Assembly: GCA_951812755.1 (NCBI GenBank)
Contig: OX638329.1
Coordinates: 124,001-188,000, forward strand
Source: an uncultured Latescibacterota bacterium
Lineage (GTDB): Bacteria > Latescibacterota > UBA2968
Length of the DNA stretch: 64,000 bases
Direction of reading: 5' to 3'
The notes below the pieces were generated by a model. It saw nothing but the letters and a program-made list of their open reading frames with translations, was not told where the DNA came from and made no database searches. A program made the translations under genes and the position numbers. This document shows, piece after piece, positions 3 through 33,542 of the stretch (its first letter is position 1; each line of letters starts with the position of its first letter).

Positions 3-3000
3 AGCGGCACATCGCCCTCAACCGTCAGCTTCAGCGCCAATCAGGCCACCGCCACACTCACAGTCGCAACGGATGACGATAATACAGATGAGCTGAATGG
101 CACGATAAGAGCACAACTACAGAGCGGAACAGACTATACAACAGGCTCTCCATCCTCGGCAACCGTCACCGTTGAAGACAACGACATGCCACAGCTATCA
201 ATCGGTGCGGACCAGACCGTTGCAGAGAGCGCGGGCAGCATGGAATTCACCGTGACACTAAATGGACCGAATGCACAGACAGTAACGGTGGACTATGAGA
301 CATCGGACGGCACGGCGACACAACCTGGCGACTATACGCGAAGGAGCGGCAGGCTGACATTCTCCCCGAGCGGAGCCCGCTCACAGACCATCCGCGTGAC
401 GATCCGGGATGACAATATAGATGAGAACAATGAAAACTTCACCCTGACGCTGAGCAATGTGAGCAACGCGACGCTGGGGACTGCCTCTGCGACCGGAACG
501 ATCACCGATGATGACACGCGCGGAGTCAGCGTGGAGCCGACGGCACTGAACGTGCCGGAAAATGGCAGCAACACCTACAGGGTGAAACTGGATTCGGAGC
601 CTACGGAGAACGTGACCGTGTCGGTGATCGTGCCAACAGGCACAGATGTGTCGGCAAATAAGACGAGTCTAACATTCACGACAGGCAACTGGCGTAACGC
701 GCAGACGGTGAGGGTGGATGCGGCTGATGATACCGACTCGAATTCAGATCCACCGGAGACGATCAGGCACACGGTAAGCGGTGGGGACTACGCCGGAGAG
801 TCAGCAGCCTCGGTGACAGTAACAATCGTCGAAAACGACATATCGACGCTGAGCATTGACAATAAAAGTGCGTCTGAGAGCGCCGGGACAATGTCGTTCA
901 CGGTGCGTCTGAGCGTGGCGAGTACCCAGCCCGTGACAGTAGATTACGCGACATCAAACGGCACGGCGATAGCACCTGGAGACTATACCCCGGATAACGG
1001 CATGCTGACATTCCCTGCGAGTAGCACGGCGTCGCGGACGATCAGTGTGACAATAGTGAACGACGATATAGATGAAGACAACGAAACCTTCACTGTAACA
1101 CTGAGCAATGCGAGCAGCAACGCGATGCTGGCGGGTGGAGGCACCTCCATCTCGGCGACCGGAACGATACAGGACAACGATACGCGCGGCGTGAGGGTAT
1201 CACGCACCTCCCTGACGGTGAACGAGGGAAGCAGCAATACCTACACGGTACAACTCCAGTCGGAACCGACGAGCACAGTAACAGTCGGAGTGTCAGTGAC
1301 CGGCAATACGGACGTATCGGTAGATAAACCAAGTCTAACGTTCACGACCAATACCTGGAACACGGCGCAGACAGTGACGGTATCGGCGGACCAGGACACC
1401 GACTCGACGAACGACTCAGCCACCGTACAACACACAGTCAGCGGCGGCGACTACGGCAACGTAACGGCGGCCTCAGTGAGAGTGACAGTAGATGACGACG
1501 AGACGCCTGGACCACCGACACCGCCAATAACGCAACAGCCACCACAGCCACCACCTACGCCACAGCCACCACCTACGCCACAGCCACCTACGCCACAGCC
1601 ACCTACGCCACAGCCACCTACGCCACAGCCACCTACGCCACAGCCTGGGGTCCCACAGGTATCAATCTCAGCAGGTACCTCACCTGTCACCGAAGGCGAG
1701 GATGCGACATTCACAATCACAGCATCCCCTGCGCCCACAACAGCAATAACCGTGAGCGTAAACGTCAGCGAGACGGAAGATGTCATCAGCGGCACACCGG
1801 AGGCAGCCGTCACCATCGGCACCTCTGGCCAGGCCACACTAACCGTAGCAACGGACGACGATAATGTAAGAGAAGACGACAGCGTAATAACCGCTCAAGT
1901 ACAAACCGGAACAGGCTACACAGTAGGCGATCCATCTTCGGCAACCGTCACCGTGAACGACGACGACGCCCCAGGGGTAAAGGATCCAGATCTGCCAGAA
2001 GTAACAATCACAGCAAATACTGCGATCATCACCGAAGGCGAGGATGCGACATTCACAGTCACAGCGACACCTGCACCCACAACAGAACTGACCGTGAACG
2101 TGAAGGTGACCGATATGGAAGATGTCCTCAGCGGCACACCGCCCTCAACCGTCACCATCAACGCCAACGAGACCACCGCCACACTGACAGTTAATACCGA
2201 AGATGATCAAATAGATGAACCCAATAGCATAGTGAAAGCGCAATTGCAAGACGGAACAGGTTACAAATTGGACAAACCGAACATAGCAAGAGTGCTCGTT
2301 AACGACAACGAAAGCTCCCGCCGAGCCCTGCTATCCACAGACGCAACACTGAAAAGTCTGACAATCAACCCCGGCAAACTGAAACCAGCATTCGACCCGG
2401 CGACATTGGACTACACCGCCTCAGTGGCCAACGCGGTCTCGAAAGTAAAAGTCACCGCAATAGCGAACAACTCGAGCGCAAGCGTAACCATCAACGGTCA
2501 GAACACAACCACATTGGACGTATCACTTGTCGAAGGCGAGAACAACATCACAGTAGTAGTTACAGCCCAAGACAACAGCACACAATTGACCTACACCATT
2601 ACAGTCACCCGCGCTGCTCCAGAGGTTCCACAGGTGACAATCACAGCGAATCCTACAACCATCACAGAAGGCACGGATGCGACATACACAATCACAGCGA
2701 ACCCCGCACCCACAGCCGCACTGAGGGTACGGGTAAATGTCACCCAAACAGGCAAGGTCCTCAGCGGCACACCGCCATCATCAGTCACCTTCCCCGCCAA
2801 CCAGACCACCGCCACCCTCACAGTAGCAACAGATGACGATAATGTAGCTGAAGAAGCCAGCGTGGTAACCGCGCAAGTACAGGCCGGAACAGGCTACACA
2901 GTAAGCACACCCTCATCGGCGAGTGTCACCGTCAACGACAACGATATTCCACAGGTGACAATCACAGCGAATCCTACAACCATCACAGAAGGCACGGATG

Positions 3001-6000: not shown

Positions 6001-9000
6001 CGATGGACATCGCAGTAACAGTAACCGCCCAGGACAACACCACCCCATTGACCTACACCATCACAGTCAACCGCGACGCCCCATCGACCGACGCAACACT
6101 GAGCGATCTGACAATCAACCCCGGCACACTGAACCCGGCATTCGATCCGGCAACATTGGACTACACTGTCTCAGTGGAAAACGGGATCTCGACAATAACA
6201 ATTACAGCCACAGCCAATAACCCGGGTGCAACCATAACCATCAACGGGCAGACCGCGACCACATTGGACATATCACTTGTCGAAGGCACGAACACCATCA
6301 CAGTAATAGTAACAGCCGAAGACGGCACCACGCAAGTAACCTACACCATTACAGTTACCCGCGACGCGCCGATCCCACAGGTAACCATCTCGGCAGGCAC
6401 CACACCCATCACCGAAGGCACGGCTGCAACCTTCACAATCACAGCGACTCCTGCACCCACAACCGCACTAACCGTGAACGTGAACATCAGTGAAACCGGC
6501 AACGTCATCAGCCGCACACCGCCCCCAACCCTCACCATCAACGCCAACGAGACCACCGCTACTCTCACAGTCGCAACAGATGACGACAATGTAGATGAAG
6601 AAGCCAGCGCAATAACCGCAGCACTACAAGCCGGAACAGGCTATACAGTGGGCGACCCATCCTCGGCAAGCGTCACTGTGAACGACAACGACGCGCCCCC
6701 CAACAATCCAGCCACAGGCGCCCCAACAATCATCGGCACACCCGAAGTGGGAGAAACACTGACAGCCGATGTCTCTAACATCCGGGATGCCGATGGCCTC
6801 ACCAATGTGGCATACATCTATCAGTGGATCCGCGTAATGGGCAGTGTGGAGACCGAAATCTCAGGCGCCACAGGTACAACATACGAAGTCGCAACAGCCG
6901 ACATTGGTCACCAGATAAAAGTCCGGGTAAACTTCACCGACGACCTGGGCAACGCCGAAAAATTGGAAAGCGAATTGACAGCATTCGTCACTGCACCAGC
7001 GGTAACGCCAGTCTTGACAATCACAGCAAGTACCACAACCGTCACCGAAGGCACGGCTGCAACCTTCACAATCACAGCAACCCCTGCGCCCACAACTGCG
7101 CTGACCGTGAACGTGAACATCACCGAAACCGGCAATACCCTCAGCGGCACACCGCCGTCAACCGTCACCATCAGCGCCAACGAGACCACCGCTACTCTCA
7201 CAGCCGCAACAGATGACGACAACGTAGATGAAGAAGCCAGCACAATAACCGCAGCACTACAAGCCGGAACAGGCTACACAGTAGGCGCCCCATCCTCGGC
7301 GAGCGTAACCGTTGAGGACAACGACCTACCCCCGAACTCCCCAGCCACAGGCGCCCCAACAATCAGCGGCACGCCTCAAGTGGGAGAAACACTGACAGCC
7401 GATGTCTCTAACATCCAGGATGCCAATGGCCTCACCAATGTATCATACACCTATCAGTGGATCCGTCTGGTAGGCAGCGCGGAAACCGAGATCATCGGAG
7501 CCACGGGTGTGACATACGCAGTCACAATAACCGATGTTGATCGCCAGCTAAAAGTTCGGGTGAACTTCACCGATGACCTGGGCTACCCCGAAGAATTGGA
7601 AAGCACCTGGACAGCTGTTATTACACCAGAGGAACCTCGCGTGATAAAATTAGACGGATGGCTGGCGCGATTTGGGCGAACAGCATCGAATCACGTCGTC
7701 GAGACAGTGCGCGAACGCGTGAGAGGGCATGTGGGCACCAACCATGTGGTGATCGGCGGATACAACCTGCATGAGATGAATACCAACGGACTATTCTACA
7801 ATCCTACAGGGATGCCGGGCGACTTCCCAATGAGATTTAGCATTGAGGCCGCGCAAAGTGATCAAAACAAAGAGATATTGAAGCAAATAATATCGAGTAC
7901 ATCATTTGCCCTATCTGGCACACTGGGACCGTATAGCGAACCGCGATGGGCAGTGTGGGGCCGGGGCGCAACAACGCGATTTAGCGGCACCGACGACGAT
8001 CAGACAGTAGAAGGCGACGTAACATCCGTCATGCTGGGCATCGACTATGGAGATAACTGTTTCCAGGGCGGACTTGTCCTATCCTACACCATGGGCGATG
8101 GGATACTGGGCACCATCGCCAATACCCGCGACGAATGGTCAGTAGAGACAACGCTGACAGGTGTTTATCCCTGGGCGCGCCTCGCATTGACAAACCGGTT
8201 CTCTGTATGGGGAATGCTGGGCTATGGCGGAGGCGACCTGCCCCTATCGCTCGACGGCATCAAGAAATTAGAGACAGACGCAAACATGGTCATGGGAGCC
8301 ATTGGTACCCGCACCGACCTGGTCGGATCGACCTATCATGACGGATTTACACTGACCCTATCGTCAGATGCCGTGCTATCGCGTGCAAATGCGGATGATC
8401 TGAGAGACTTACTGGAAAACAAGGGCACTGCGAGCCGCGTGCGCGTATTATTAGAGGGATCACACGTACTCTGGGTCGCCGGGGGATCACTGCAACCATT
8501 GGCCGAGGTGGGCATGCGGTATGATGGCGGCGATGCAGACACGGGCATGGGCATAGAATTTGGAGTCGGGATGCGTTATACACTGACCTCGCTGGGCCTG
8601 ATGATTGAAGGTCGAGTGCGCGGCCTCATAGCACACCAGGAAGGCAGTTATGAAGAATGGGGCGGTTCGGGCACAATCCGCCTGTCTCCAAATCCATCGG
8701 GCGAAGGACTATCGCTTCGGGTATCGCCAACATGGGGCGACGCATCTGGCAGCGCGCGTGCCCTGTGGTCGAAGCCCGACATGGGCGACATCGCATCTGG
8801 TCGCAACTCGGAAGTCTATTCATCTAATCGCGTATCCGCCGAAGTAGCTTATGGCGTACCGCTACTGGGCGAAAAATTAATTGCGACGCCATTTATCGGG
8901 CTACAAGACAGGCACAAACGCCTCGGCATCGGCTTGCACAGAGGTTCGTTGTTCGGCTTTGCGGTCGAGGGCATGCAACACAACCAGGACCTTGCCCTGC

Positions 9001-9107: not shown

Positions 9108-9113
9108 GATTTA

Positions 9114-10112
9114 ATGACCCTCAAAACCCTGAACCACACCCTCTCCAAATTCCGAAACCTCGCCATCCTCGTCATCGGTGACTACTTCCTCGACCGCTAT
9201 CTCATCACTGATCCCGACCTCGCCGAAACATCCATCGAAACCGGCCTTGAAGCACGCCAGATAGTCGCCATTCGCAACCAGCCCGGCGCAGCCGGCACCA
9301 TCACCTCCAACCTCTGCGCCCTCGGCATTGGACACGTCTATGCCCTGGGTATAATCGGCCGCGATGGTCAGGGCTATGACCTCAAACAGGGATTGCGCGC
9401 CACGGGTGTAGATATCACCCACCTCATCGAAACGCCCGACCGCTTTACCCCGACTTATACCAAACCCATAAACAAAAAAACAGGCGCTGAAATGGAACGC
9501 CTGGACATAAAAAATCGAACGCCCCTACCCCTCGACCTCGAAAATCAACTCATCAAAACCCTGCACCTTCTCCTCCCCAAAGTAGATGGCGTCATAGCCC
9601 TCGACCAGGTACAGGAACCCAACTGCGGTGTACTCACAGATCGCATCGTTGCCGAACTCGCCAAACTCGCCAAAACGCATCCCAACACCACATGCTTCGC
9701 CGACTCCCGCACCCGCATCACTAACTTCAAAAATGTCATCCTCAAAGCCAACCGCGACGAAGCCATTCACGCCATTGGAGAACGCGACCTCAACCAATGT
9801 GCCCGCATCTTTTCCCGGCGCACCGGCAAACCCGTCTTCATCACCCTTGGGCCCGACGGCATTCTCGTTGCCAACAACGAAAACCTCACGCATATTCCCG
9901 GTATAAAAATTCCGCTCCCCATCGACATTGTGGGCGCAGGCGACAGCGTCTCCGCATCCGTTGTCTCCGCCCTTTGTGCCAGCGCATCACTATCCGACGC
10001 CGCCCAAATAGGCGTATTGGCCTCATCCATCACCATACAACAAATCGGCACAACCGGCACAGCCTCGCCCGAACAGATCGCAAAGCGATTTCGAGATACC
10101 CAAACGTCTTAA
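9114..10112 (+). CDS. PfkB-family sugar kinase (RfaE/HldE N-domain-like)
   Basis: This 332-aa protein is a ribokinase-fold carbohydrate kinase expected to phosphorylate a sugar with ATP in the cytoplasm. The N-terminus (LVIGDYFLDRYL) and the DxVGAGDS-type motif (DIVGAGDSVSAS, near residue 270) give the sugar-binding start and the anion hole with catalytic Asp. The N-terminal pattern GDxFLDRYxxxxP and QPGAAG resemble the heptose-7-phosphate kinase domain of HldE, but no nucleotidyltransferase domain follows. The substrate cannot be read from sequence. The gene begins 6 bp after the stop of the giant autotransporter and ends 10 bp before the sulfatase, so the three are probably co-transcribed. 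A partner role in processing a sugar released by the sulfatase is inference. Confidence 0.85.
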   Translation: MTLKTLNHTLSKFRNLAILVIGDYFLDRYLITDPDLAETSIETGLEARQIVAIRNQPGAAGTITSNLCALGIGHVYALGIIGRDGQGYDLKQGLRATGVDITHLIETPDRFTPTYTKPINKKTGAEMERLDIKNRTPLPLDLENQLIKTLHLLLPKVDGVIALDQVQEPNCGVLTDRIVAELAKLAKTHPNTTCFADSRTRITNFKNVILKANRDEAIHAIGERDLNQCARIFSRRTGKPVFITLGPDGILVANNENLTHIPGIKIPLPIDIVGAGDSVSASVVSALCASASLSDAAQIGVLASSITIQQIGTTGTASPEQIAKRFRDTQTS

Positions 10113-10122
10113 AAGGAACCCC

Positions 10123-11400: not shown

Positions 11401-11569
11401 AAGGAAGAAGGAAGAAGTCTCCACCCAACCCCCAAAGGCTGGTATTTCATCTCCCCTTCACCCTTCACCCTTCACCCTTCCCAGCCTCCAGGTGGTGGTC
11501 AAAAAACGTTTGCATAAAATCTGATAACTTAATAAATTAGACTCGCTCCATAAACTGGCAAAAAAATAG

Positions 11570-11679
11570 CCGCATTATATCTGCGGAGATGGCAGAAGAC
11601 CGCCCGGATTGGTAGCCTGTGGCCTTCTGCCGAAACAAACAGAGAGGGAAACGGTCTTGCAAACCGCAACCCACTCTCT
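11570..11679 (+). promoter_or_regulatory. Cluster of three stem-loops upstream of the giant gene; possible structured leader RNA
   Basis: Stem 1 pairs CCGCA (11570-11574) with TGCGG (11582-11586). Stem 2 pairs GGCAGAAG (11591-11598) with CTTCTGCC (11624-11631). Stem 3 pairs AGAGA plus GGG (11641-11648) with CCC plus TCTCT (11670-11679), enclosing CGGT/ACCG around a CTTGCAA loop. It matches no riboswitch consensus I know, and the transcribed strand is not proven. Confidence 0.35.
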
Positions 11680-11799
11680 TTCACAATGTAAAGTTCCGCG
11701 ACCACAAAATCAAGTTGCATTTTTCCGCTGCTTTCCGCTTCGAGGGCCTGCGAGATCATCGTGGCGTTTCGAGATGGCAGTTAACCACACACCATGAGG

Positions 11800-11813
11800 A
11801 ACAGGCACCTGTT
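11800..11813. promoter_or_regulatory. Palindrome AACAGG-CA-CCTGTT, possible operator
   Basis: Perfect 6-bp arms with a 2-bp centre lie 45 bp upstream of the TATAAT box of the giant gene. A repressor or activator site is possible, but no regulator is encoded nearby. Confidence 0.3.
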
Positions 11814-11857
11814 TAAAATTATGCAAGGATACATTTTATGGATATAAAGTCAATAAA

Positions 11858-11863
11858 TATAAT
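11858..11863 (+). promoter_or_regulatory. Candidate -10 box TATAAT for the second giant gene
   Basis: An exact TATAAT lies 57 bp upstream of the start codon in an AT-rich stretch. The hexamer 17 bp upstream (TTTATG) is a weak -35 match, so the call rests on the -10 box alone. Confidence 0.35.
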
Positions 11864-11920
11864 AACTTATCCCCCTTCCCGCTTCGAGCTCTTTCATTCT
11901 ACATAGTCAGGAGGGATATA

Positions 11921-20900: not shown

Positions 20901-23900
20901 CGGCGGACAAGACACTGACAATTAGGGACGATGAGGCGTTGCCGACGGTAATGCTGACACTGACGCCGACTTCAATTGGAGAGAACGGCGGCATCAGTAC
21001 GGTAACAGCGAGTATGAACAGACCATCGAGCGAAGCCGTGACCGTGACCGTGTCTGCGGTATCAGTATCCCCGGCAATGGCGAGCGATTTTACCCTCAGC
21101 GGGACGACGCTGACGATTGCGGCGGGTTCTACGACCAGTACAGGTACAGTGACCATCACAGCGGTGAACAACGGCACCGACGCGCCAGACAAAAAAATCA
21201 CCGTATCTGGCAGCGCGAGCGGGGGTCGGGGGGTATCGGCACCGGATGCAGTGACGCTGACGATCACCGACGATGAGGACTTGCCAGAGGTGACGCTGGC
21301 GCTATCACAAACTTCAATTGCGGAAAACGGTGGGGTCAGCGCAGTAACAGCGATGCTGAACAGACCGTCGAGCGAAGCCGTGACCGTAACCGTGTCTGCT
21401 GCTGCAGTGTCCCCGGCAGTATCGGGTGACTTCACCTTGAGCGGGAACAGGAGGCTGACGATCACAGCGGGGCAGACGATGAGCACAGGTACAGTCACCA
21501 TCACGGCGGTGAACAATGATACTGACGCACCGAACAAGGAAATCACCGTATCGGCAAGCGCGAGCGGAGGACTCGGTGTGGCAGCACCGGATGCCCAAAC
21601 CCTGACGATAGTGGACGACGAAGATACGCCAACAGTGATGTTGGTGCTGACGCCGCAGGAGATTGGAGAGAACGGTGAGGTCAGCACAGTGACGGCAACG
21701 CTGAGCGGCAAGTCGAGTCAAGCCGTGACCGTAACCGTGTCTGCCGCGGCGGTACCTCCGGCAGTGGCGGAAGATTTTACGCAAAGCGGAACAACGCTGA
21801 CGATCACAGCGGGTTCTACGACCAGTACACGTAGAGTGACCATCAGGGCGGTGGACAACAATGTGGATGCACCGAACAAAGAAATCACCGTATCTGCAAC
21901 CGTGAGCGGGGGAGGTGGCGCGGTAGCACCGACTTCCCAAATCCTGACGATCACCGATGATGAAGGCGCACCAACAGTGACATTGGTGCTTAATCCGTCG
22001 TCGATAAATGAGAACGGTGGTGTAAGTACAGTGACAGCAACCCTGACTGGACCATCGAGCGATGACGTGACAGTGACGGTGATCTCGGCGTCTATGGATA
22101 TCACGCTGAGCACGAACAAGACACTGACGATCACAGCGGGTCAGACCACGAGCACAGGTACAGTCACCATCACGGCGGTGAACAACGAGACCGACGCGCC
22201 AGACAAAGAAATCACCGTATCTGGCAGCGCGAGTGCGGATGTGACATCACCGACTTCTCAAACACTGACGATAGTGGACGACGAAGATACGCCAACAGTG
22301 ACATTGGTGCTTAATCCGTCGTCGATAAATGAGAACGGTGGTGTAAGTACAGTGACAGCAACCCTGACTGGACCATCGAGCGATGACGTGACAGTGACGG
22401 TGATCTCGGCGTCTATGGATATCACGCTGAGCACGAACAAGACACTGACGATCACAGCGGGTCAGACCACGAGTACGGGTACAGTAACCATCACAGCGGT
22501 GAACAACGGCACCGACGCGCCAGACAAAGAAATCACCGTATCTGGCAGCGCGAGCGGGGGTCGGGGGGTATCGGCACCGGATGCAGTGACGCTGACGATC
22601 ACCGACGATGAGGACTTGCCAGAGGTGACGCTGGCGCTATCACAAACTTCAATTGCGGAAAACGGTGGGGTCAGCGCAATAACAGCGATGCTGAACAGAC
22701 CGTCGAGCGAAGCCGTGACTGTAACCGTGTCTGCCGCGGCGGTACCTCCGGCAGTATCGGGTGACTTCACCTTGAGCGGGAACAGGAGGTTGACGATTGC
22801 AGCGGGGCAGACGATGAGTATGGGGACGGTGACCATCACGGCAGAGAATAATACCGTAGATGCACCGAACAAGGAGATCACCGTATCTGCAACCGTGCGC
22901 GGGGGAGGTGGCGTGATAGCACCAGAAGACCAGACACTGATGATCATCGACGACGAAGGGGCACCAACAGTAATGCTGGTGTTGACACCGGACGAGATTG
23001 GAGAAAATGGCGGCACAAGCAGGGTGACAGCAACCTTGAGCGGTGCTTCAAGTGACCCCGTTACCGTGACGGTATCTGCCAATGCGGTATTCCCTGCTGT
23101 GTCGAGCGATTTTACGCAAAGCGGAACAACGCTGACGATCACAGCGGGTCAGACCACGAGCACGGGTACAGTGACCATACGTGCGGTGAACAACAACACG
23201 GATGCGCCCAACAAAGAAATCTCGGTATCTGCAACCGTGAGCGGGGGAGGTGGCGCGGTAGCACCGACTTCCCAAACCCTGACGATCACCGACGATGAGA
23301 CAACGCCTACAGTGACGCTGACACTGTCGCCGACCTCAATTGGAGAGAACGGCGGCATCAGCACGGTGACAGCGAGTATGAACAGACCGTCGAGCGAAGG
23401 GGTAACAGTAACCGTGTCTGCGGCGTCTGGGGACATCACGCAAAGCGGAACAACGCTAATGATCACAGCGGGTCAGACGACGAGCACAGGTACTGTAACC
23501 ATCACGGCGGTGAACAACAATGTAGATGCACCGAACAAGACCGTCACAGTATCCGGCAGCGCGAACGGGGGACTGGGAGTGATGGACCCGACTTCCCAAA
23601 CGCTGACGATTACCGATGACGACACGCGCGGGGTGACGATCTCGACCAATGATCTGACGGTGACAGAGGGCAACAGCGCGGACTACACGGTAAAACTGGA
23701 CACGGAACCGACGGGAGATGTGATCATCGCGGTGAATGTGCCATCGGGTTCGGAGGTCTCGGTAGATGATGCCACGTTGCGGTTCACGACGAGCAACTAT
23801 AACAATCCGCAAACCGTGACGGTGACGGCAGAAGCGGACGAGGACGCAGTGGCCGACGCGCCAGTGACGCTGAGCCACACGGTCAGCGGCAACGACTATC

Positions 23901-26900
23901 AGGGGGTGTCTGCGGCCAATGTAAGGGTGACGATCATTGAGGCCAACACACCGACGCTGACGATTGCGGATGTGCGTGCGGCGGAGAACGTCGGGAACAT
24001 GGCGTTTGAAGTAACCCTGAGCGTAGCCAGCAGCAACGCGGTGACAGTGGATTACGCGACCGCGAATGGCACGGCGATGGCGGGAGACGACTACAGGGCA
24101 CGGAATGGCACACTGACCTTTTCGCCGGGCGGGACACGCACGCGGACGATCAGCGTACCCATCATCAACGATACGATAGATGAAGATGAGGAAGAGACGT
24201 TTACCGTAAGCCTGAGCAACGCGAGCAACGCGATGATAGGCGATGCGAGCGCGACCGGGACGATTGAGGACAACGATGTGCCGCAGGTCGAAGTATCGTT
24301 TGCTCGAGACACCTATACGGTAAACGAGGGAAGCGCAGTGATGATGGTCGTGTCGCTGAACAAAGATCCAGAACGCGAGGTAATCATTCCGATCCTGACG
24401 TCGCACCAGGGCGGTGCGACAACTGCCGACTATTCGAGGATACCGCCGAGTGTGACCTTCAACGCAGGCGAAAGAGAAAAGACCTTTGAGATCACCGCGA
24501 CCGACGATGGGATAGACGATGACAACGAGACCATAACACTCCGTTTCGGCAACCTGCCAACTCGGGTTACGGCGGGTAGCCCATCTACTGTCGAAATCGC
24601 AATCACCGATGGCGACATTCCCGAGGTGACCGTATCGTTCGCCCGGGCAAGCTATACGGCTTCCGAAGGCGGCAATGCGGTAACAGTACAGGTGCGCCTG
24701 AGCGCGGATCCCGAGCGCACAGTGATCATCCCACTGACAGCGACGGGGCGCAACGGCGCCGAGACCAACGACTATGACTTGCCATCAACGAACCTGACCT
24801 TCAATCCCACCGAGACCGTGCAGACCTTTACTCTCACGGCAACCGACGACGACATAGATGACGACAACGAGACCGTAGAACTCGGCTTTGGCACTTTACC
24901 TGATAAGGTCAGCGCTGCCCTTGTCCGCCCGACCACGGTGATATCCCTGGCCGACAACGACACACGCGGGGCGAGGGTATTCCCCACGACTGTGAACGTG
25001 CCGGAAGGCGACAGCAATACCTATGTGGTGGAACTGACCTCGCAACCGACCGCGCCGGTGACGGTGACAGTTGCGGGTGCCTCCGGGGACATAAGCGTGA
25101 GCGGCTCGCCGTTGACATTCCCGCCGGACGACTGGCGCGAGGCGCAGACAGTGACGGTCAGCGCGGCTGAGGACAACGATGCCCTATCGGATGATCCGGT
25201 GACACTGACGCATGCCGTCAGCGGCGGGGACTACGGTGCAGTGACGGCTGATGCTGTAGAGGTGAGGATCACCGAGAACGACGCGCCGGTCCTGACGATT
25301 AATGACGAGCGCGGGGTCGAGAACATCGGCAGGATGATGTTCGAGGTAACCCTGAGCCAGATTAGCAGCGACGTAGTAAGGGTGGATTATGCGACGCAGG
25401 GCGGTTCGGCCACACAGGGAACGGACTACACGCAGACGAGCGGCACGCTGACATTCTCGTCGGGCGACACGGAAAAACAGATCGCGGTGACGATTCGGGA
25501 CGACGCCATAGACGAAAACGACGAGACCTTCACCGTGACGCTGAGCAATGCACAAAACGCAGAACTGGCAAACAACGAGGCAACCGGAACCATCATCGAC
25601 AACGATGAACCAACGCCTACGCCACCAACGCCTACGCCACCAACGCCTACGCCACCAACGCCTACACCACCAACGCCTACGCCACCTCCTGTCTTGCCCG
25701 AGGTAATCGTTTCCTTTGGTGAAGCGAGCTATGAGGCTACGGAAGGCGGTAGCGCTGCAATGGTGCGGGTATCTCTGAGTGCAGACCCCGAGCGCGAGGT
25801 GACAATACCCCTGACAGCGACGCCGGAAAATGGAGCCACAGATGCCGACTATTCCGGCGTGCCTGAACGTATCACCTTCTCCAATGGCGAGACGAGCAAA
25901 ACCTTTGAGGTCGTGGCCTTAGATGACGATATAGACGATGACGACGAGAGCATAACACTCTCATTCGGCACATTACCTGATAACGTGGAAGCGGGCAGTC
26001 CTGCCACAGCCACAGTATCTCTTACCGACAATGACGTTTCTGTGACTGTTTCCTTTGATCAAGCGCGCTACACAGCAGCGGAAGGAGGAACTGCGGCAAC
26101 CATAATGGTACGCCTGAGCGCGGATCCAAAGCGCGAGGTGACAATCCCACTGACAGTCACCTCTGCCAATGGAGCCACATCTGCCGACTATTCCGGCGTG
26201 CCTGAACGTATTACCTTCTCCAATGGCGAGACGAGCAAAACCTTTGAGGTCGTGGCCTTAGATGACGATATAGACGATGACGACGAGAGCATAACACTCT
26301 CATTCGGCACGCTACCTGATAACGTGGAAGCGGGCAGTCCTGCCACAGTAGTACTTGCCGACAATGACGATCCCGTAGTAACAGTGTCTTTTGATCAAAC
26401 GCGCTATAAGACAACCGAAGGCGGTAACACAGCGACGATACGGGTATCTCTGAGCGCGGACCCCGAGCGCACCGTAGCCATCCTACTCATCGTAACGCCG
26501 AAAAATGGAGCCACAGAAGATGACTATGCTGGCGTGCCACAAAGCATCATCTTCACCAGCGGCGAGACCGAAAAAACCTTTGAGATTGTGGCCGTAGATG
26601 ATGAGATAGACGATGACGACGAGAGCATAACACTGAGTTTTGGCACATTATCACACAGGGTCAACCCGGGCAGTCTTGCCACAGTAGCACTTGCCGACAA
26701 TGACGACCCTGTGGTAACCGTTTCCTTTGGTCAAGCCCACTATAGGGCAGCAGAGGGCGGGCGCGCTGCGACGGTGCGGGTATCTCTGAGTGCAGACCCC
26801 GAGCGCACCGTAATAATCCCCCTATCAGCGACGCCCGCCAACAGGGCCACAGAGGCCGACTATTCCGGTGTGCCTGAAAGTATAACCTTTACCAATGGCG

Positions 26901-29900
26901 AGACCGAAAAAACCTTTGAGATCACCGCCACCGACGATGAGATAGACGATGACGACGAGAGCATAACACTCTCATTCGGCACGCTACCTGATAACGTGGA
27001 ATCGGGCAGTCCTGCCACAATAGCACTTATCGACAATGACGATCCCGTAGTGAATGTCTCCTTTGGCCAAGTGACCTATGAAGCAACCGAGGGTGGCAGC
27101 ACGGCTATGGTAATCGTGTCCCTGAGCGCGGACCCCGAGCGCACGGTCGCCATCCCACTCATCGCAACACCTGCCAATGGGGCCACACAGGACGACTATT
27201 CCGGTGTGCCTGAAAGTATAACCTTTACCAATGGCGAGACCGAAAAAACCTTTGAGATCACCGCCACCGACGATGATATAGATGATGATGACGAGAGCAT
27301 AACACTCTCATTCGGCACGCTACCTGATAACGTGGAAGCGGGCAGTCCTGCCACAGTAGCACTTGCCGACAATGACGATCCCGTAGTGAATGTCTCCTTT
27401 GGCCAAGTGACCTATGAAGCAACCGAGGGTGGCAGCACGGCTATGGTGATCGTGTCCCTGAGCGCGGACCCCGAGCGCACGGTCGCCATCCCACTCATCG
27501 CAACACCTGCTAATGGGGCCACACAGGACGACTATTCCGGCGTACCACAAAGCATCACCTTTAATAGCGGTGAGACGAACAAAACCTTTGAGATCACCGC
27601 CACCGACGATGATATAGACGATGACGACGAGAGCATAACACTCTCATTCGGCACGCTATCTGACCGCGTCGAGGCAGGCAGTCCTGCCACAGTAGCACTT
27701 ATCGACAACGACGACCCCATAGTAGCAGTCTCCTTTGATCGTGCAACCTACGAGACAACCGAGGGTGGCAGCACGGCTATGGTAATCGTGTCCCTGAGCG
27801 CGGACCCCGAGCGCACGGTCGCCATCCCACTCATCGCAACACCTGCTAATGGGGCCACACAGGACGACTATTCCGGCGTACCACAAAGCATCACCTTTAA
27901 TAGCGGTGAGACGAACAAAACCTTTGAGATCACCGCCACCGACGATGATATAGACGATGACGACGAGAGCATAACACTCTCATTCGGCACGCTATCTGAC
28001 CGCGTCGAGGCAGGCAGTCCTGCCACAGTAGCACTTATCGACAACGACGACCCCATAGTCGAGGTCTCCTTCGAGCAATCAACCTACGAGACAACCGAGG
28101 GTGGTAGCACAGCACTGGTGACCCTGACCCTGAGTGCGGACCCCGAGCGCACAGTCGTCATCCCACTCATCGCAATGCCGGAAAATGGTGCCACACAGGA
28201 CGACTATTCCGGCGTACCACAAAGCATCACCTTTAATAGCGGTGAGACGAACAAAACCTTTGAGATCACCGCCACCGACGATGAGATAGATGATGACGAC
28301 GAGAGCATGACGCTCACCTTCGGCACCCTGCCGCACAAAGTTCGCACAGGGCGTCCCTCAACAGCGATGGTGAGTCTAATAGACAACGACGATCCCATAG
28401 TCGAGGTCTCCTTTGATCAAACAACCTACGAGACAACCGAAGGTGGCAGCGCAGCACTGGTAACCCTGACCCTGAGTGCGGATCCCGAGCGCACGGTCGC
28501 CATCCCACTCATCGCAATGCCGGAAAATGGTGCCACAGATGCCGACTATTCCGGCATACCACAAAGCATCACTTTTCACAGGGGCGAGACCGAAAAAACT
28601 TTTGAGATCACTGCCACCGACGACGATATAGACGATGACGACGAGACCATGACACTTACCTTTGGCACATTACCACACAGGGTCAACCCGGGCAATTTTT
28701 CAACAGCGATGGTAAGTCTGATAGATGACGACGATCCCATAGTCACAGTCTCCTTTGATCGTGCAACCTACGAGACAACCGAGGGTGGTAGCGCGGCGAG
28801 AATAACCGTAACCCTGAGTGCAGATCCCGAGCGCACAGTAGTAATCCCCCTGATCGCAACACCTGCCAATGGTGCCACACAGGACGACTATTCCGGCATA
28901 CCACAAAGCATCACCTTTCACAGGGGCGAAACCGAAAAAACTTTTGAGATCACTGCCACCGACGACGATATAGACGATGACGACGAGAGCATAACACTCA
29001 CCTTTGGCACATTACCACACAGGGTCAACCCGGGCAATTTTTCAACAGCGATGGTAAGTCTGATAGATGACGACGATCCCATAGTCGAAGTATCCTTTGA
29101 TCGTGCAACCTACGAGACAACCGAAGGAGGCAGCGCAGTGCGGGTGATCGTGTCTCTAAGTGCGGACCCCGAGCGCTCGGTCACCATTCCACTCATCGCA
29201 ACACCTGCCAATGGTACCACACAGGACGACTATTCCGGTGTACCTGAGAGCATCACCTTTCACAGGGGTGAGACGGAGAAGACCTTTGAGATCACTGCCA
29301 CTGACGACGATATAGACGATGACGACGAGACCATCGCACTCACCTTTGGCACCCTGCTACACAGGGTCAATAAGGGCAATCTCACAACAGCGATGGTAAG
29401 TCTGATAGATGACGACGATCCCATAGTCACAGTCTCCTTTGGTGAAGCGAGTTACGAAACTACCGAAGGAGGCAGCGCAGTGCGGGTGATCGTGTCTCTA
29501 AGTGCGGACCCCGAGCGCACAGTAGTAATCCCCCTGATCGCAACACCTGCCAATGGTGCCACACAGGACGACTATTCCGGCATACCACAAAGCATCACCT
29601 TTCACAGGGGCGAAACCGAAAAAACTTTTGAGATCACCGCCACTGACGACGATATAGACGATGACGGCGAGAGCATAACACTCACCTTTGGCACCCTGCT
29701 ACACAGGGTCAATAAGGGCAATCTCACAACAGCGATGGTAAGTCTGATAGATGACGACGATCCCATAGTCGAAGTATCCTTTGGTGAAGCGAGTTACGAA
29801 ACTACCGAAGGAGGCAGCGCGGCGAGAATAACTGTAACCCTGAGTGCAGATCCCGAGCGCACAGTAGTAATCCCCCTGATCGCAACACCTGCCAATGGTG

Positions 29901-32647
29901 CCACACAGGACGACTATTCCGGCATACCACAAAGCATCACCTTCACCCCAGGCGAGACCGAAAAAACTTTTGAGATCACTGCCACTGACGACGATATAGA
30001 CGATGACGACGAGACCATCGCACTCACCTTTGGCACCCTGCTACACAGGGTCAATGAGGGCAATCTCACAACAGCGATGGTAAGTCTGATAGATGACGAC
30101 GATCCCATAGTCGAAGTATCCTTTGGTGAAGCGAGTTACGAAACTACCGAAGGAGGCAGCGCGGCGAGAATAACCGTAACCCTGAGTGCAGATCCCGAGC
30201 GCACGGTGGAAATACCCCTGATCGCAACACCTGCCAATGGTGCCACACAGGACGACTATTCCGGTGTACCTGAGAGCATCACCTTTCACAGGGGTGAGAC
30301 GGAGAAGACCTTTGAGATCACCGCCACCGACGACGATATAGACGATGACGGCGAGACCATCGCACTCACCTTTGGCACATTACCACACAGGGTCAATTTG
30401 GGCAACCAATCCACCGTAACAATTATCGACACTGACCAACGCGGCATAACCGTGTCGGTGACAGAATTGGCCGTTCCCGAAGGAGATACCCGCACCTACA
30501 CAGTCGTGCTACACAGCACCCCGACAGCGCCTGTGACCATCGATATAACCGGAATGACAAATACGGACGTGTCGGTAGGCACAGCACAGTTGACATTCAC
30601 AGCAGAGAACTGGAACGTACCCCAGGACGTGGTGGTCGCAGCACAGGACGACACTGACGCAATAGTAGAAAGCGCGACACTCCGCCACGCCATAAGCGGC
30701 GGAGACTACGGCGAAGTCGTCGTGCCATCAGTTATCGTGACAATCATCGAAGACGACACACCGGCGATAACGATGGAGAATGAGAGCGTCATTGAACACG
30801 CCAGAGAGATGGTATTCACCGTCGTATTGGATATACAAAGCAGCAACGAAGTGACGGTGAATTACACGACCAACAGCGGCACGGCAGAAGCCCGCACAGA
30901 CTACACTGCAGTGCAGGGCACCTTGCGCTTTGCCGCCTTACAGACCGAACAGACGATCAGCGTGCCAATCATTGACGACGATATAGACGAGGACCCCGAG
31001 ACATTCACAATGACGCTGAGCAATCCCATGCACGCGACCCTGCCCGAGGCCACCGCCACAGGCACGATTGAAGACAACGATGCCGCAGCGCGGGCAATGG
31101 AAGTGCTCCTATCCAATGTGGGACGAATGGTGGCGACAGACGCCGTTGACGTCATCAGCAGGCGATTTGATCAGCGCTCATTCTCCAGGTCCGCGCTCAT
31201 CACACTCGGCGGACGAACCCTGCTGCGACACCACAGAGCAAGTGCTGAACAGTGGCACGCACTCGTGGGAGTGGCGCACAGTGTAATACAGGCCCTCGGC
31301 GTAGATATCTATACGCCAGCAGACCTGAGCATGCGGGGCGCTCACCTGTATGGGATGGATACGAGGGTGCGGACGTTCCGACCCAATGTAGCGAACATGG
31401 GGATGCAGACATCCCGACCACAGGGCATAGTACAAATGCGCCGGGTTACGCCATGGGAGTTGCTATCGCGCAGTGCCTTTAACATGCCGTTGAATCACCT
31501 GGATAAAGGGAACAGATGGACGCTTTGGGGACGGGGTGCAGCGAGCGGATTTTCAGGTCATCCAAGTGCCATACGCAGAATGACCTCGGATGGCTTCAGC
31601 GGATACATCGGCATAGATTACCAGGCGCGGGCAAATGTTTTGATCGGACTGGCCCTCACCCACAGCGTGGGCGACCTCAACTACAAAAGCAGAGATAAAG
31701 TCACGCTGGTGCCCGTCGATTTTGGCATCACGAGCGTACTGCCTTACGCCCATTATCAGGTACATCCTCGGCTGGGGATATGGGGCCTTCTCGGCGCAGG
31801 TCGCGGCAGTGTGAATCTGACAGACAAAGAGGGAATCGTTGAGACAGATCTGAAATTGCTGATGGGCGCGGCAGGGGGCCGGCAAGACCTGATGAGATGG
31901 CGGAAGATTAACTTCGCGATGAAAGCAGACGCCTTTATCGCAGCAATGGCATCGGGCGAAAACGAGAGATTGCCAGAAATATGGGAAGACGTGGAGCGCG
32001 TGCGGATGCTCCTCGAGGCGCGCACCACCTATGCATCTGGCATAGCATCGCAGTTCCGCCAGCGCATAGAAATCGGCGGACGCTGGGACATGGGACGTGT
32101 GGAGAAAGGCGCAGGCATGGACATAGGCGGAGGGATCGAATACGCGCACATAGACCGCGGAATTGGCCTATCCATAGACGGGCGATACTTACTAACACAC
32201 GAGCAGGTCGGCTACGGCGAATGGGGCGCGGGTCTGACGTTGCAGATCAATCCGGGATGGGGCAGGCCCGGACTGGTCCTGTCTGTGGCACCGGGATGGG
32301 GCGCACCCATCCGCAGCGCCGAGGCCCTCTATCGCAGCACCCCGGGACTGAGACTGGTACCTGTGTACAGGCCACAGCGCGAGATAGGGATGGAACCCGA
32401 CCGGTTTGAAGTCGATTTGGGCTATCGGCTGTTGACACACGCCGGAAATGGACTAATGACGCCTTATGGTGGGTTTTCAACCAGTGGGTGGGGCTATCAA
32501 AGCTATCGCATAGGCGGGCGTATGGAAGTGGGCAAGCGTATAGAAATAGGCGATGGCATGGCCCTGAGCGTGGAGGGCGAGCGCCAGGCACGGGGGCGTG
32601 GCGAGGCAGCTTATGGCATCTATCTGCGCGGGCACATGCGATGGTAG
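11921..32647 (+). CDS. Giant 6908-aa Calx-beta repeat autotransporter
   Basis: This is a complete secreted, probably surface-anchored protein of well over 600 kDa. The start ATG is fixed by AGGAGGG at 11909-11915. A signal peptide (residues 1-30, hydrophobic ALILILLCVLTV, cleavage near DAAAQ) is followed by diverged Calx-beta-like domains (to about 860). Next come canonical Calx-beta domains mixed with RGVxVxPTxLxVPEG modules (about 860-2770), ten SIGENGG-type repeats (about 2776-3890), a mixed zone, a Pro/Thr linker (about 4563-4588), fourteen 112-aa DIDDDDE repeats (about 4590-6168), a last RGI and Calx-beta pair, a helical linker and the C-terminal barrel (about 6525-6908). The acidic loops fit calcium binding. 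Barrel and linker resemble those of the gene ending at 9107. Adhesion or biofilm function is inference. Confidence 0.92.
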   Translation: MSFLLTTMLRRCCALILILLCVLTVPDAAAQTITLSLSPTSLTEDAGSADIAVTATLSATRSSATTITLSLAGTATEGAGKDYTAQDPLPTITIPANTATGNTTLVVSPRDDTFYEGDETIEVNGSAGSLTVTGASLTLTDNDEAPSVRLLFLDFFILSESVVTTPVTVALEARLEGGTTLEEDLDITIVLTGSTKDSDYTVNPDPLPTITINAGETTGRLTFTIAIIDDALSERETIHFGGRVDAPDPMLTIISAGGKEILDNDRVEFLLRSIKRTDEQGNGAWMYKDNPTNIIVKALSQPFTVALGAPATFTLTSNSFFTISPDPLVITIGADQVPPEASATVRVTYIAPDKETLSMDVVRQVSDATLNYDGPFQFRFPPHERPRINVLAGDNNYNLTSVELSDNERYIEGDRIFFRIHYTGSFISTRDPTLEFYLDDELRQATCILTCFYQVRSGDFANTIRVPVQGNIYPADAVFTHARSEQSVTLNSAITTEHTFSAQVRGGLNYIELLTDLESLQEGVGATRVEVQATILQGRLSGTDIEIPLVLTDDTTTPADYTVSGTQAITIPANQSSGSTTLLITPVDDYVKENRTETVQIAGGMSEYWVEGTNLKIIDAPSIMLSVSPSTITEDGGAQQVTVTAGLGDPSDQVRPRPIPVTLRLFGRAGSGDYSVAEQLIVTIPVNARSATKTLTFTPVNDRLLEGDETIVLRGSTPGLTVESTELTLIDDDMVPEVRLIIDDNTISESDGAATQVMVTAELDPSVITNNNTIVTLHLMGSAVQGSGGDYTAAWSPSNKQITVPALSDAGTAPVRLTLRPQQDDVAEGDETIEVEGMAVVGNTGVERIVRVATITLKDDDLPDVVIDPTALAVPEGGSNTYTVKLTTEPTGNVTIGMITVLSATDISTDRTALTFTPNNWNQAQTMTVRAVEDNDAIVDDPVTLTHTVSGGGYGDVEVDDVVVTITENDTPVLSIAPASLEEADANMTFTVTLNVFSDKEITVDYATSDGTATAGEDYTAVTATTLTFTAGTREQTISVPIIEDELDEDDETFTVTLSNVSNATLSGGGQTLSATGTIINDDRKPVVTLTPASQSVLEDAGSMAFTVTLDAESSKEITVDYATSDGTATEPDDYGQKTGTLTFSPGESLTEVVTVSIEDDELDEDNETFTMTLSTPVNAVFAGDASAINATGTITDDDDTPSLSIADARIEEASANMAFTVTLSAASAKTVTVDYATSDGTATEPDDYEEQASTLTFDPGETTKEIQVQILEDDIDEAEEETFTVTLSNPGNATIADATATGTIEDDDDPRVEVSFDAENYTVNEGETVTVTVRLDKDPERTVVIPLRRTHQDGATTADYSGVSSSLTFNAGETEIEIAFTAIDDNIDDDDEKVVLGFGTLPDRVSTGTGTATTATVAINDDDDPQVTVSYDKTSYSVAEGATQTVRVRLDKDPERTVEIPIDKTHQNGATEDDYSGVPENVTFNAGEMEKTFTFTATDDDIDDNNEKVVLGFGTLTDNRVTRGSSATITITDDDERGVTVEPTTLNVPEGESRTYTVVLKSEPTADVTVTVTVPSGRTGDVSVSGSPLTFTSSNWREAQTVTVSAVDDNAVTPDADVTLTHGVSGGDYAGESASSVRVTIINDDSPTLTIDDVRASEDTEMMIFTVELSQAIAEAVTVTYQTLNGTATAPSDYTAVTATPLEFASNQTSETISVSIENDALDEEDETFRVRLSNASNATIADAEAIGTIEDDDPEPVLTLSPASLSASEGAGSMAFTVTLGAASAKTVTVNFQTSDGTAESGKDYTETSRPLTFSPGGNLTQTISVPITHDALDEEDETFKVALSGASNATITGDEAIGTIEDDDPEPVLTLTPANQTVSEGAGSMAFTVTLGAQSAKTVTVNYATVNGTATAPSDYTATSGMLTFSPGDPLTRTFTVPIRDDDEDEDEEENFTLTLSAAVNATFSGGGTTLSATGTIRDDDVPLVRLEFIPGFQSVNEGEMVTVTVGLRGNADPERTLSIPLTVMGTPFAPDAGPNDYSGVPSSVTLNSSNRSSSFTFTAIDDNIDEGDGTRDYEQLRIGSGMLPDRVELTSAESRRTGAIRILDNDEAKLSIADESVRESARNMTFMVTMSVPSSREVTVRYETGDATATVGKDYTAANGTLTFSPGDTEKTFTVPILQDALDEEDETFTVSLSNVTNAAIEDNEATGTIEDDDEPPMLRIADASIEEHDEDMVFTVTLGAPSEKTIMVSYATSNNTAESGKDYTETSGMLTFSPGDPLMQEIRVPILEDALDEEDEEDFTVTLSGESNATISDASATGTIEDDDDPPALSIGDESESEDVGTMTFTVTLSAPSAKTVRVNYATSNNTATAPSDYTARNGMLTFSPGDTEKTFTVSIIDDALDEEDEEEFTIRLSLSSNANATLRDAVATGTIEDNDDPPVLSIAEESLMENGGTMRFRVRLNVASSRQVTVRYATLDGTATVDEDYTSAIGLLTFSPGTTEQTMSVPILQDAIDEEDETFTVRLSFPTSATLFGGGATLSTTGTIRDDDDPPVLSIRDASLEEEDAGMVFIVSLSAESAKTITVDYATMAGTATAGVDYTERNGTLTFEPGDLLTQTIAVPIIEDAIDEEDEETFKVTLSMASNATLMDDEATGTIRDDDDPPVLSIGTDQTLTEADADMVFTVSLSAASSKEITVNYATSNVTAESGKDYTARSGTLMFEPGESLIQTISVPIFDDNIDEEEETFTLGLSNVQNATLDDANATGTITDDEVTPTVTLTLTPTSIGENGEISTVTATLSGASSEAVTVTVSASAVSPAVSGDFNLSGNKRLTIAAGATTSTGQVTIRAVNNNVDAPNKTITVSGSASGGLDVADPTSQTLTIEDDEDTPTVTLTLSPTSIGENGGTSRVTARLSGRSSEDVTVTVFTTAEFPAVSNDFTQSGTTLTITSGATTSTGTVTITAVNNDTDAPDKEITVSGSASGGLGVAHPADKTLTIRDDEALPTVMLTLTPTSIGENGGISTVTASMNRPSSEAVTVTVSAVSVSPAMASDFTLSGTTLTIAAGSTTSTGTVTITAVNNGTDAPDKKITVSGSASGGRGVSAPDAVTLTITDDEDLPEVTLALSQTSIAENGGVSAVTAMLNRPSSEAVTVTVSAAAVSPAVSGDFTLSGNRRLTITAGQTMSTGTVTITAVNNDTDAPNKEITVSASASGGLGVAAPDAQTLTIVDDEDTPTVMLVLTPQEIGENGEVSTVTATLSGKSSQAVTVTVSAAAVPPAVAEDFTQSGTTLTITAGSTTSTRRVTIRAVDNNVDAPNKEITVSATVSGGGGAVAPTSQILTITDDEGAPTVTLVLNPSSINENGGVSTVTATLTGPSSDDVTVTVISASMDITLSTNKTLTITAGQTTSTGTVTITAVNNETDAPDKEITVSGSASADVTSPTSQTLTIVDDEDTPTVTLVLNPSSINENGGVSTVTATLTGPSSDDVTVTVISASMDITLSTNKTLTITAGQTTSTGTVTITAVNNGTDAPDKEITVSGSASGGRGVSAPDAVTLTITDDEDLPEVTLALSQTSIAENGGVSAITAMLNRPSSEAVTVTVSAAAVPPAVSGDFTLSGNRRLTIAAGQTMSMGTVTITAENNTVDAPNKEITVSATVRGGGGVIAPEDQTLMIIDDEGAPTVMLVLTPDEIGENGGTSRVTATLSGASSDPVTVTVSANAVFPAVSSDFTQSGTTLTITAGQTTSTGTVTIRAVNNNTDAPNKEISVSATVSGGGGAVAPTSQTLTITDDETTPTVTLTLSPTSIGENGGISTVTASMNRPSSEGVTVTVSAASGDITQSGTTLMITAGQTTSTGTVTITAVNNNVDAPNKTVTVSGSANGGLGVMDPTSQTLTITDDDTRGVTISTNDLTVTEGNSADYTVKLDTEPTGDVIIAVNVPSGSEVSVDDATLRFTTSNYNNPQTVTVTAEADEDAVADAPVTLSHTVSGNDYQGVSAANVRVTIIEANTPTLTIADVRAAENVGNMAFEVTLSVASSNAVTVDYATANGTAMAGDDYRARNGTLTFSPGGTRTRTISVPIINDTIDEDEEETFTVSLSNASNAMIGDASATGTIEDNDVPQVEVSFARDTYTVNEGSAVMMVVSLNKDPEREVIIPILTSHQGGATTADYSRIPPSVTFNAGEREKTFEITATDDGIDDDNETITLRFGNLPTRVTAGSPSTVEIAITDGDIPEVTVSFARASYTASEGGNAVTVQVRLSADPERTVIIPLTATGRNGAETNDYDLPSTNLTFNPTETVQTFTLTATDDDIDDDNETVELGFGTLPDKVSAALVRPTTVISLADNDTRGARVFPTTVNVPEGDSNTYVVELTSQPTAPVTVTVAGASGDISVSGSPLTFPPDDWREAQTVTVSAAEDNDALSDDPVTLTHAVSGGDYGAVTADAVEVRITENDAPVLTINDERGVENIGRMMFEVTLSQISSDVVRVDYATQGGSATQGTDYTQTSGTLTFSSGDTEKQIAVTIRDDAIDENDETFTVTLSNAQNAELANNEATGTIIDNDEPTPTPPTPTPPTPTPPTPTPPTPTPPPVLPEVIVSFGEASYEATEGGSAAMVRVSLSADPEREVTIPLTATPENGATDADYSGVPERITFSNGETSKTFEVVALDDDIDDDDESITLSFGTLPDNVEAGSPATATVSLTDNDVSVTVSFDQARYTAAEGGTAATIMVRLSADPKREVTIPLTVTSANGATSADYSGVPERITFSNGETSKTFEVVALDDDIDDDDESITLSFGTLPDNVEAGSPATVVLADNDDPVVTVSFDQTRYKTTEGGNTATIRVSLSADPERTVAILLIVTPKNGATEDDYAGVPQSIIFTSGETEKTFEIVAVDDEIDDDDESITLSFGTLSHRVNPGSLATVALADNDDPVVTVSFGQAHYRAAEGGRAATVRVSLSADPERTVIIPLSATPANRATEADYSGVPESITFTNGETEKTFEITATDDEIDDDDESITLSFGTLPDNVESGSPATIALIDNDDPVVNVSFGQVTYEATEGGSTAMVIVSLSADPERTVAIPLIATPANGATQDDYSGVPESITFTNGETEKTFEITATDDDIDDDDESITLSFGTLPDNVEAGSPATVALADNDDPVVNVSFGQVTYEATEGGSTAMVIVSLSADPERTVAIPLIATPANGATQDDYSGVPQSITFNSGETNKTFEITATDDDIDDDDESITLSFGTLSDRVEAGSPATVALIDNDDPIVAVSFDRATYETTEGGSTAMVIVSLSADPERTVAIPLIATPANGATQDDYSGVPQSITFNSGETNKTFEITATDDDIDDDDESITLSFGTLSDRVEAGSPATVALIDNDDPIVEVSFEQSTYETTEGGSTALVTLTLSADPERTVVIPLIAMPENGATQDDYSGVPQSITFNSGETNKTFEITATDDEIDDDDESMTLTFGTLPHKVRTGRPSTAMVSLIDNDDPIVEVSFDQTTYETTEGGSAALVTLTLSADPERTVAIPLIAMPENGATDADYSGIPQSITFHRGETEKTFEITATDDDIDDDDETMTLTFGTLPHRVNPGNFSTAMVSLIDDDDPIVTVSFDRATYETTEGGSAARITVTLSADPERTVVIPLIATPANGATQDDYSGIPQSITFHRGETEKTFEITATDDDIDDDDESITLTFGTLPHRVNPGNFSTAMVSLIDDDDPIVEVSFDRATYETTEGGSAVRVIVSLSADPERSVTIPLIATPANGTTQDDYSGVPESITFHRGETEKTFEITATDDDIDDDDETIALTFGTLLHRVNKGNLTTAMVSLIDDDDPIVTVSFGEASYETTEGGSAVRVIVSLSADPERTVVIPLIATPANGATQDDYSGIPQSITFHRGETEKTFEITATDDDIDDDGESITLTFGTLLHRVNKGNLTTAMVSLIDDDDPIVEVSFGEASYETTEGGSAARITVTLSADPERTVVIPLIATPANGATQDDYSGIPQSITFTPGETEKTFEITATDDDIDDDDETIALTFGTLLHRVNEGNLTTAMVSLIDDDDPIVEVSFGEASYETTEGGSAARITVTLSADPERTVEIPLIATPANGATQDDYSGVPESITFHRGETEKTFEITATDDDIDDDGETIALTFGTLPHRVNLGNQSTVTIIDTDQRGITVSVTELAVPEGDTRTYTVVLHSTPTAPVTIDITGMTNTDVSVGTAQLTFTAENWNVPQDVVVAAQDDTDAIVESATLRHAISGGDYGEVVVPSVIVTIIEDDTPAITMENESVIEHAREMVFTVVLDIQSSNEVTVNYTTNSGTAEARTDYTAVQGTLRFAALQTEQTISVPIIDDDIDEDPETFTMTLSNPMHATLPEATATGTIEDNDAAARAMEVLLSNVGRMVATDAVDVISRRFDQRSFSRSALITLGGRTLLRHHRASAEQWHALVGVAHSVIQALGVDIYTPADLSMRGAHLYGMDTRVRTFRPNVANMGMQTSRPQGIVQMRRVTPWELLSRSAFNMPLNHLDKGNRWTLWGRGAASGFSGHPSAIRRMTSDGFSGYIGIDYQARANVLIGLALTHSVGDLNYKSRDKVTLVPVDFGITSVLPYAHYQVHPRLGIWGLLGAGRGSVNLTDKEGIVETDLKLLMGAAGGRQDLMRWRKINFAMKADAFIAAMASGENERLPEIWEDVERVRMLLEARTTYASGIASQFRQRIEIGGRWDMGRVEKGAGMDIGGGIEYAHIDRGIGLSIDGRYLLTHEQVGYGEWGAGLTLQINPGWGRPGLVLSVAPGWGAPIRSAEALYRSTPGLRLVPVYRPQREIGMEPDRFEVDLGYRLLTHAGNGLMTPYGGFSTSGWGYQSYRIGGRMEVGKRIEIGDGMALSVEGERQARGRGEAAYGIYLRGHMRW
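20245..23610 (+). repeat. Ten SIGENGG-type repeats of about 315-336 bp
   Basis: Units starting P(T/E)V-L-L-SIxENGG recur ten times. Units beginning at 21971 and 22292 share an apparently identical stretch of about 190 bp (321 bp apart). A block of roughly 300 bp near 21180 recurs near 22515, displaced by 1335 bp, which indicates segmental duplication or gene conversion. Confidence 0.85.
25606..25685 (+). repeat. 15-bp microrepeat encoding a Pro/Thr linker
   Basis: About five copies of a gccaccaacgcctac unit encode PTPTP repeats, separating two repeat blocks of the giant protein. The linker in the first giant is also built from a 15-bp unit. Confidence 0.85.
25690..30425 (+). repeat. Fourteen tandem 336-bp (112-aa) acidic Calx-beta units
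   Basis: Each unit reads VxVSFxxxxYxxxEGGS, then SADPER, DDYSG and the acidic loop DDDIDDDDE. Spacing is 336 bp where checked (27051 to 27387; 27392 to 27728). The units at about 27387-27722 and 27723-28058 are nearly identical at DNA level, so the array has been homogenised or recently expanded. Confidence 0.9.
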
Positions 32648-32677
32648 TCATCGCGGCTTAAACCATGCCGCAATGAC
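32647..32677. repeat. REP-like palindrome at the stop codon of the giant gene
   Basis: Arms GTCATCGCGGC (32647-32657) and GCCGCAATGAC (32667-32677) pair with one mismatch. This is a member of the dispersed family seen at 36008, 38923, 43753 and 46166. Confidence 0.75.
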
Positions 32678-33530: not shown

Positions 33531-33542
33531 CTCACCCTCCTC
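33531..33542 (-). promoter_or_regulatory. Ribosome-binding site that fixes the SDR start
   Basis: The minus strand reads GAGGAGGGTGAG directly before the ATG at 33530, a near-perfect Shine-Dalgarno match. Confidence 0.7.

Follow-up and report, generated by a model that had tools for sequence, protein, structure and literature searches.

Two predicted giant autotransporters flank a conserved msrB-kinase-sulfatase unit, probably by chance

A sugar kinase gene and a sulfatase gene are flanked by two very long Calx-beta genes in the window studied here (i.e., the whole 64,000-nucleotide stretch of DNA that was analysed, G000:C1:124001-188000, from the one-contig, 6.53-Mb genome G000 of an uncultured Latescibacterota-type bacterium; positions are those of the window unless a genome or locus is named). 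Our preferred reading, to which we give a probability of about 0.8, is that both are independent, movable or losable barrel-anchored giants located by chance around a conserved msrB-kinase-sulfatase unit. Kinase and sulfatase are kept together in relatives lacking one or both giants, which suggests that the four genes are chance neighbours. The giants would then be separate members of a patchy family of barrel-anchored giant autotransporters, probably accessory genes that come and go at intergenic sites in an otherwise stable chromosome, and would function independently of the kinase and sulfatase.

Architecture of the giants and their neighbours

The four genes are all encoded on the + strand, in the order giant 1, PfkB-type kinase, sulfatase and giant 2, and open reading frames and Pfam matches agree with the first-pass annotation in placing a Calx-beta giant on either side of the kinase and sulfatase. 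The tight gene order also proposed there holds for giant 1, kinase and sulfatase (gaps of 6 and 10 bp, respectively), but not for sulfatase and giant 2, which are separated by a 520-bp spacer (11401..11920) in which a sigma-54 promoter was searched for and not found. This spacer contains a 7-bp tandem repeat (CCCTTCA x3.9, 11454-11480) ~440 bp upstream of giant 2, the copy number of which could vary.

Giant 1 (3580 aa, G000:C1:122365-133107) begins ~40 bp after msrB, 1635 bp before the window, and its 3' part extends over 3..9107. The N-terminus is a plain Sec signal peptide (MFSQIEQIFSHLIRIRLTAFILMLALPIAAKAQ; ...LMLALPIAAKAQ, read directly from the sequence), followed by a passenger of Calx-beta, cadherin-like and Calx-like repeats, and then by a Pro linker, a putatively helical linker and a barrel. 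Two PF03160 Calx-beta domains lie above the Pfam cut-off in the in-window part (180..1181, G000:C1:124180-124515 and 124834-125181), alongside four PF12733 cadherin-like stretches and a weak LapA-domain match under cut-off (E 6e-4). A tandem-repeat scan identified the Pro linker (1551..1645, 15-bp units encoding PPTPQ repeats) and a 318-bp array of 106-aa Calx-like modules (2626..4382, 91% matches). The linker and autotransporter-type barrel, recognized through BLASTP and profiles, occupy 7620..9107, and this barrel is matched in Pfam by OMP_b-brl only, at 25.9 bits for a cut-off of 28.7.

Giant 2 (11921..32647, 6908 aa) displays a similar organization, with a signal peptide (...LLCVLTVPDAAAQ, read directly from the sequence), 33 PF03160 Calx-beta copies above the Pfam cut-off, a Pro linker of 15-bp units with PTPTP repeats detected in the same type of scan (25609..25686), a 342-bp tandem array of 11.7 Calx-beta units (26450..30405), and a linker and autotransporter-type barrel (31076..32647) weakly matching PF03797 (E 0.0018, 18.5 bits, below the 26-bit cut-off). 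Calx-beta domains, RGVxVxP-type modules and 15-bp-unit Pro linkers, all previously noticed in the sequence, were indeed found in both giants. Start codons and signal peptides of the giants were read by eye. Each giant would be exported by Sec and inserted by BAM as the most likely route, and its very long Calx-beta/Ig-like repeat passenger would be displayed on the cell surface as a long rod, most likely a calcium-stiffened adhesin or spacer.

Between the giants, the kinase (9114..10112, PfkB E 7.5e-26) is nearest to RfaE/HldE domain I, yet far under the model cut-off (136 vs. 345 bits), and the sulfatase (10123..11400, PF00884, E 1.4e-54) includes a CSAGR formylglycine-type motif. On the other side of giant 2, a REP-like palindrome (GCGGCTTAAACCATGCCGC, 32653..32671, + strand) lies just past the stop codon, followed by an SDR dehydrogenase (32772..33557, - strand) which in relatives is the next gene directly after the sulfatase. 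An element related to this palindrome is also located inside a 148-bp tandem repeat (35959-36259), and an IS607-like element, read by eye as a serine recombinase gene that overlaps one for a TnpB-like transposase, lies at 37032-38706.

Gene order around the kinase-sulfatase pair in relatives

A search for the kinase covered 41 genomes, and the regions around it were then read. Within the genus, the sample carrying the kinase-sulfatase pair comprised eight genomes (G000-G004, G006, G007 and G009), several of them draft, and the gene order was stable: msrB, kinase, sulfatase, a convergent SDR, a mandelate-racemase-like gene and a methyltransferase-like gene. Giant 1 is present in five of these (G000, G001, G002, G003 and G007) and absent from the other three, in which msrB and the kinase are separated by ~83 bp (G004), ~2 bp (G006) and ~136 bp (G009). 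In G001, G003 and G007 the 3' end of giant 1 precedes the kinase and the contig ends within the giant, so that its location between msrB and kinase is confirmed on both sides in G000 and G002 only. Giant 2 lies between sulfatase and SDR in G000 alone (1/8). The sulfatase-SDR junction is a short, near-identical sequence in six giant-2-free genomes, and in G007 a ~145-bp spacer with no giant, which holds the same REP-like palindrome as found after giant 2; since this palindrome has 134 copies in genome G000 (at ≤1 mismatch), it does not provide specific evidence of a scar in G007. Outside of the genus, the kinase adjoins the sulfatase in G014 (genus g5), on a 12-kb contig that carries no giant.

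Overall, the giant-kinase-sulfatase-giant order, first taken for a linked unit, is absent from all seven other genus genomes carrying the pair, which stands without giant 1 in three of them and without either giant in G014. The pair thus persists in relatives unlinked to the giants, an observation that the first-pass annotation had itself named as speaking against its proposal.

This occupancy pattern bears directly on the surface matrix tied to sulfated glycan use that had been suggested from the sequence, in which the giants would display or hold a sulfated glycan processed by the kinase and sulfatase. Such a functional matrix would fit the arrangement of giant 1, kinase and sulfatase on one strand with 6- and 10-bp gaps, as well as the retention of giant 1 at its site in five of the eight genomes. 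It is however contradicted by the occurrence of the pair in genomes lacking giant 1 (three genus members, plus genus g5) or giant 2 (7/7 other genus members examined), and by the sulfatase, in the sequence of which no signal peptide was seen upon inspection. Export-signalled, co-conserved glycan-handling genes were sought near the pair and not found, so that the region does not qualify as a sulfatase-linked polysaccharide utilisation locus; its conserved neighbours are msrB, the SDR, mandelate-racemase-like and methyltransferase-like genes, and cytochrome genes. Likewise, the neighbours of eight other barrel loci include neither the kinase nor the kinase-sulfatase pair, the sole sulfatase-like neighbour being four genes off in the G006 region. 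With at least 152 sulfatases in G000, the chance of a sulfatase neighbour is about 6% for any given gene (based on ~5,400 genes, a number estimated from the 6.53-Mb genome), and for a genome with three barrel giants a sulfatase beside one of them is unsurprising. Several sulfatases were also found in Latescibacteria single-cell genomes (PMC4454575), and an enrichment of sulfatases compared with Latescibacteria was reported for PAUC34f and Poribacteria (PMC7081726). Taken together, these results make the surface matrix very improbable, and there is no giant-sulfatase system here.

A looser tie deserves more consideration for giant 1. Given the 6- and 10-bp gaps, giant 1, kinase and sulfatase may be co-transcribed in the five carriers, and a functional link between them specific to these carriers may exist. 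Alternatively, giant 1 could stem from an ancestral msrB-giant 1-kinase-sulfatase operon, with a weak functional tie and a loss of the giant in some lineages. A tree of five core genes, with modest support, separates three groups ({G000,G009}, {G001,G003,G007} and {G002,G004,G006}), and the giant 1 carriers are spread over all three, with 89-92% identity between their giant-1 barrels. An ancestral giant 1 with later losses fits this distribution, and repeated gain is compatible with it as well. Against the operon, the loss of the giant in 3/8 genomes leaves the pair unchanged, which makes any tie dispensable, and the poorly supported tree of giant-1 barrels shows no clear match to the core tree. 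We thus regard the ancestral operon as possible, if rather unlikely.

A patchy barrel family

Giants 1 and 2 have homologous barrels (33% identity over 285 aa, E 2e-34, BLASTP), and an alignment of 23 members clearly delineates a family that has the linker (LARFGRT...) and barrel in common. The expectation that the barrels would prove related upon HMM comparison was borne out: they are related to each other, and 11 of the 23 match PF03797 (Autotransporter) at E ≤ 0.01 (best E 3.4e-14). Neither window barrel reaches any curated Pfam cut-off, and searching G000 with PF03797 alone yielded no match, where the family's own profile does match. No matching chain was found when searching solved structures with the barrel profile, no relative of the barrel in plasmid records, and no description of these giants in the literature. 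An AF2 model of the giant 1 barrel, built from only three sequences, had a pLDDT of 29. On sequence grounds, giants 1 and 2 are predicted type V autotransporters, a known kind; as the window barrels taken alone fall under the cut-offs, this label derives from the 11/23 family matches combined with the signal peptides and overall architecture.

The family was detected in 18 of 64 genomes of the phylum, all within one class, and is thus patchy. Its longest frames are a third barrel giant in G000 (11,240 aa, approximately G000:C1:890348-924070, minus strand, with many Calx-beta domains), 750 kb from the window giants, and a 10,886-aa giant in G008 (G008:C1 about 4853000-4885732). The latter lies in a gap between housekeeping genes, its neighbours being orthologues of the NAD synthase/PpiD (56273-59887) and ATP synthase genes (44536-50591) of the window. 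Two further giant frames of G000 (4,913 and 8,739 aa, C1 about 6.28-6.32 Mb) have weak Calx-beta matches, and the barrel of the giant 1/2 family was not detected in them.

In the barrel tree, the three giants of G000 belong to three different clades, and giant 2 groups with G002_C53, G006_C2 and G015_C60 (support 95-96%). The giants had initially been described as paralogues with a common linker and barrel: the homology stands, and the tree indicates distant relatives rather than recent duplicates. A tandem duplication of giants 1 and 2 is rejected on the basis of this tree. Their origin from a local duplication around the kinase-sulfatase pair, as could be imagined from their same strand, same architecture and neighbouring positions, is hardly credible when barrel identity is a mere 33% and the clades are different and well supported, and when the barrels nearest to that of giant 2 lie at other loci of G002 and G006. 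The separate clades support the view of giants 1 and 2 as independent members of the family.

Regulators at other barrel loci and likeness to known systems

In relatives, a full-length NtrC-type regulator is recurrently located directly upstream of barrel autotransporters, preceded at several loci by a PAS-type histidine kinase. This sample was found during exploration rather than chosen beforehand, and comprises 18 regulator loci (17 at ≥62% identity over most of the length, and one at 51%). At eight of these, the regulator is immediately followed by a barrel autotransporter or by a gene with a barrel autotransporter's start sequence (G002, G006, G008, G015, G016 and G037, plus truncated starts in G040 and G027). 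Regions showing this arrangement include G008 L104 1502-3415, G002 L099 2319-4241, G006 L101 4159-6039, G015 L110 2024-3928 and G037 L113 18450-19499. Since the barrel is directly downstream at only 8/18 loci, the partnership is not exclusive, and the regulator as a general, exclusive partner of barrel giants is ruled out.

The sigma-54 consensus YTGGCACRNNNNTTGCW was found with ≤2 mismatches at seven of the eight regulator-barrel loci (≤1 at six), for a background of 2 sites at ≤1 mismatch per 481 kb of strand sequence; at the G016 locus, the site was sought and absent. These TTGGCACRNTTTNTGCA-like sites precede the end of the upstream sequence scanned by some 50 to 200 bases, with TTGCAA-type palindromes or repeats further upstream at several loci. 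A sigma-54 site also occurs downstream of the regulator at 3/10 regulator loci lacking a barrel gene. In G037 (L113 4714-18166, G037:C1:3478000-3497500), three tandem barrel autotransporters cluster with a fourth gene that shares their start, with a sigma-54-like site in each of the three spacers examined. No sigma-54 site was found before giants 1, 2 and 3 of G000 or before the second giant of G008, no NtrC-type regulator adjoins giants 1, 2 and 3 upstream, and a full-length regulator gene of this type is absent from G000. The barrel clade of giant 2 includes three regulator-linked modules, the giant 2 site itself being without a regulator.

It is tempting to speculate, and we see the odds as about even, that part of the barrel-giant family forms signal-response modules, in which the upstream PAS-type histidine kinase and NtrC-type regulator would switch on the giant through a strong sigma-54 promoter and TTGCAA-type palindromes. 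This recurring association of giant autotransporters with a two-component/sigma-54 switch makes regulation testable in an uncultured lineage, and is a more interesting lead than the giant-sulfatase tie. For the latter, the exact empty and occupied sites of two giant genes in one genus illustrate that a giant surface protein can be encoded right beside metabolic genes by accident.

Among known systems, type Va autotransporters (PF03797) share with the giants a Sec signal peptide, a surface-type passenger, and a C-terminal linker and barrel. They differ in that the window barrels are under the Pfam cut-off, and that the giants' passengers consist of Calx-beta/cadherin-like repeats rather than a called beta-helix. 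These passengers are also far longer than is usual for classical autotransporters. As very long tandem Ig-like/Calx-beta rods, and with the weak LapA match of giant 1, the giants resemble adhesins of the RTX/LapA and SiiE kinds, but they are anchored by their own barrel, and no adjoining type I secretion genes were noted. Finally, those barrels of relatives that are preceded by an NtrC-type regulator and by a -24/-12 promoter are reminiscent of sigma-54 cell-surface gene sets (Francke et al., 2011, PMC3162934), from which the window giants differ in having neither regulator nor promoter. Autotransporters are unmentioned in that study, in which sigma-54 is viewed as controlling the exterior of bacteria, and the regulator-barrel theme of the relatives agrees with this view.
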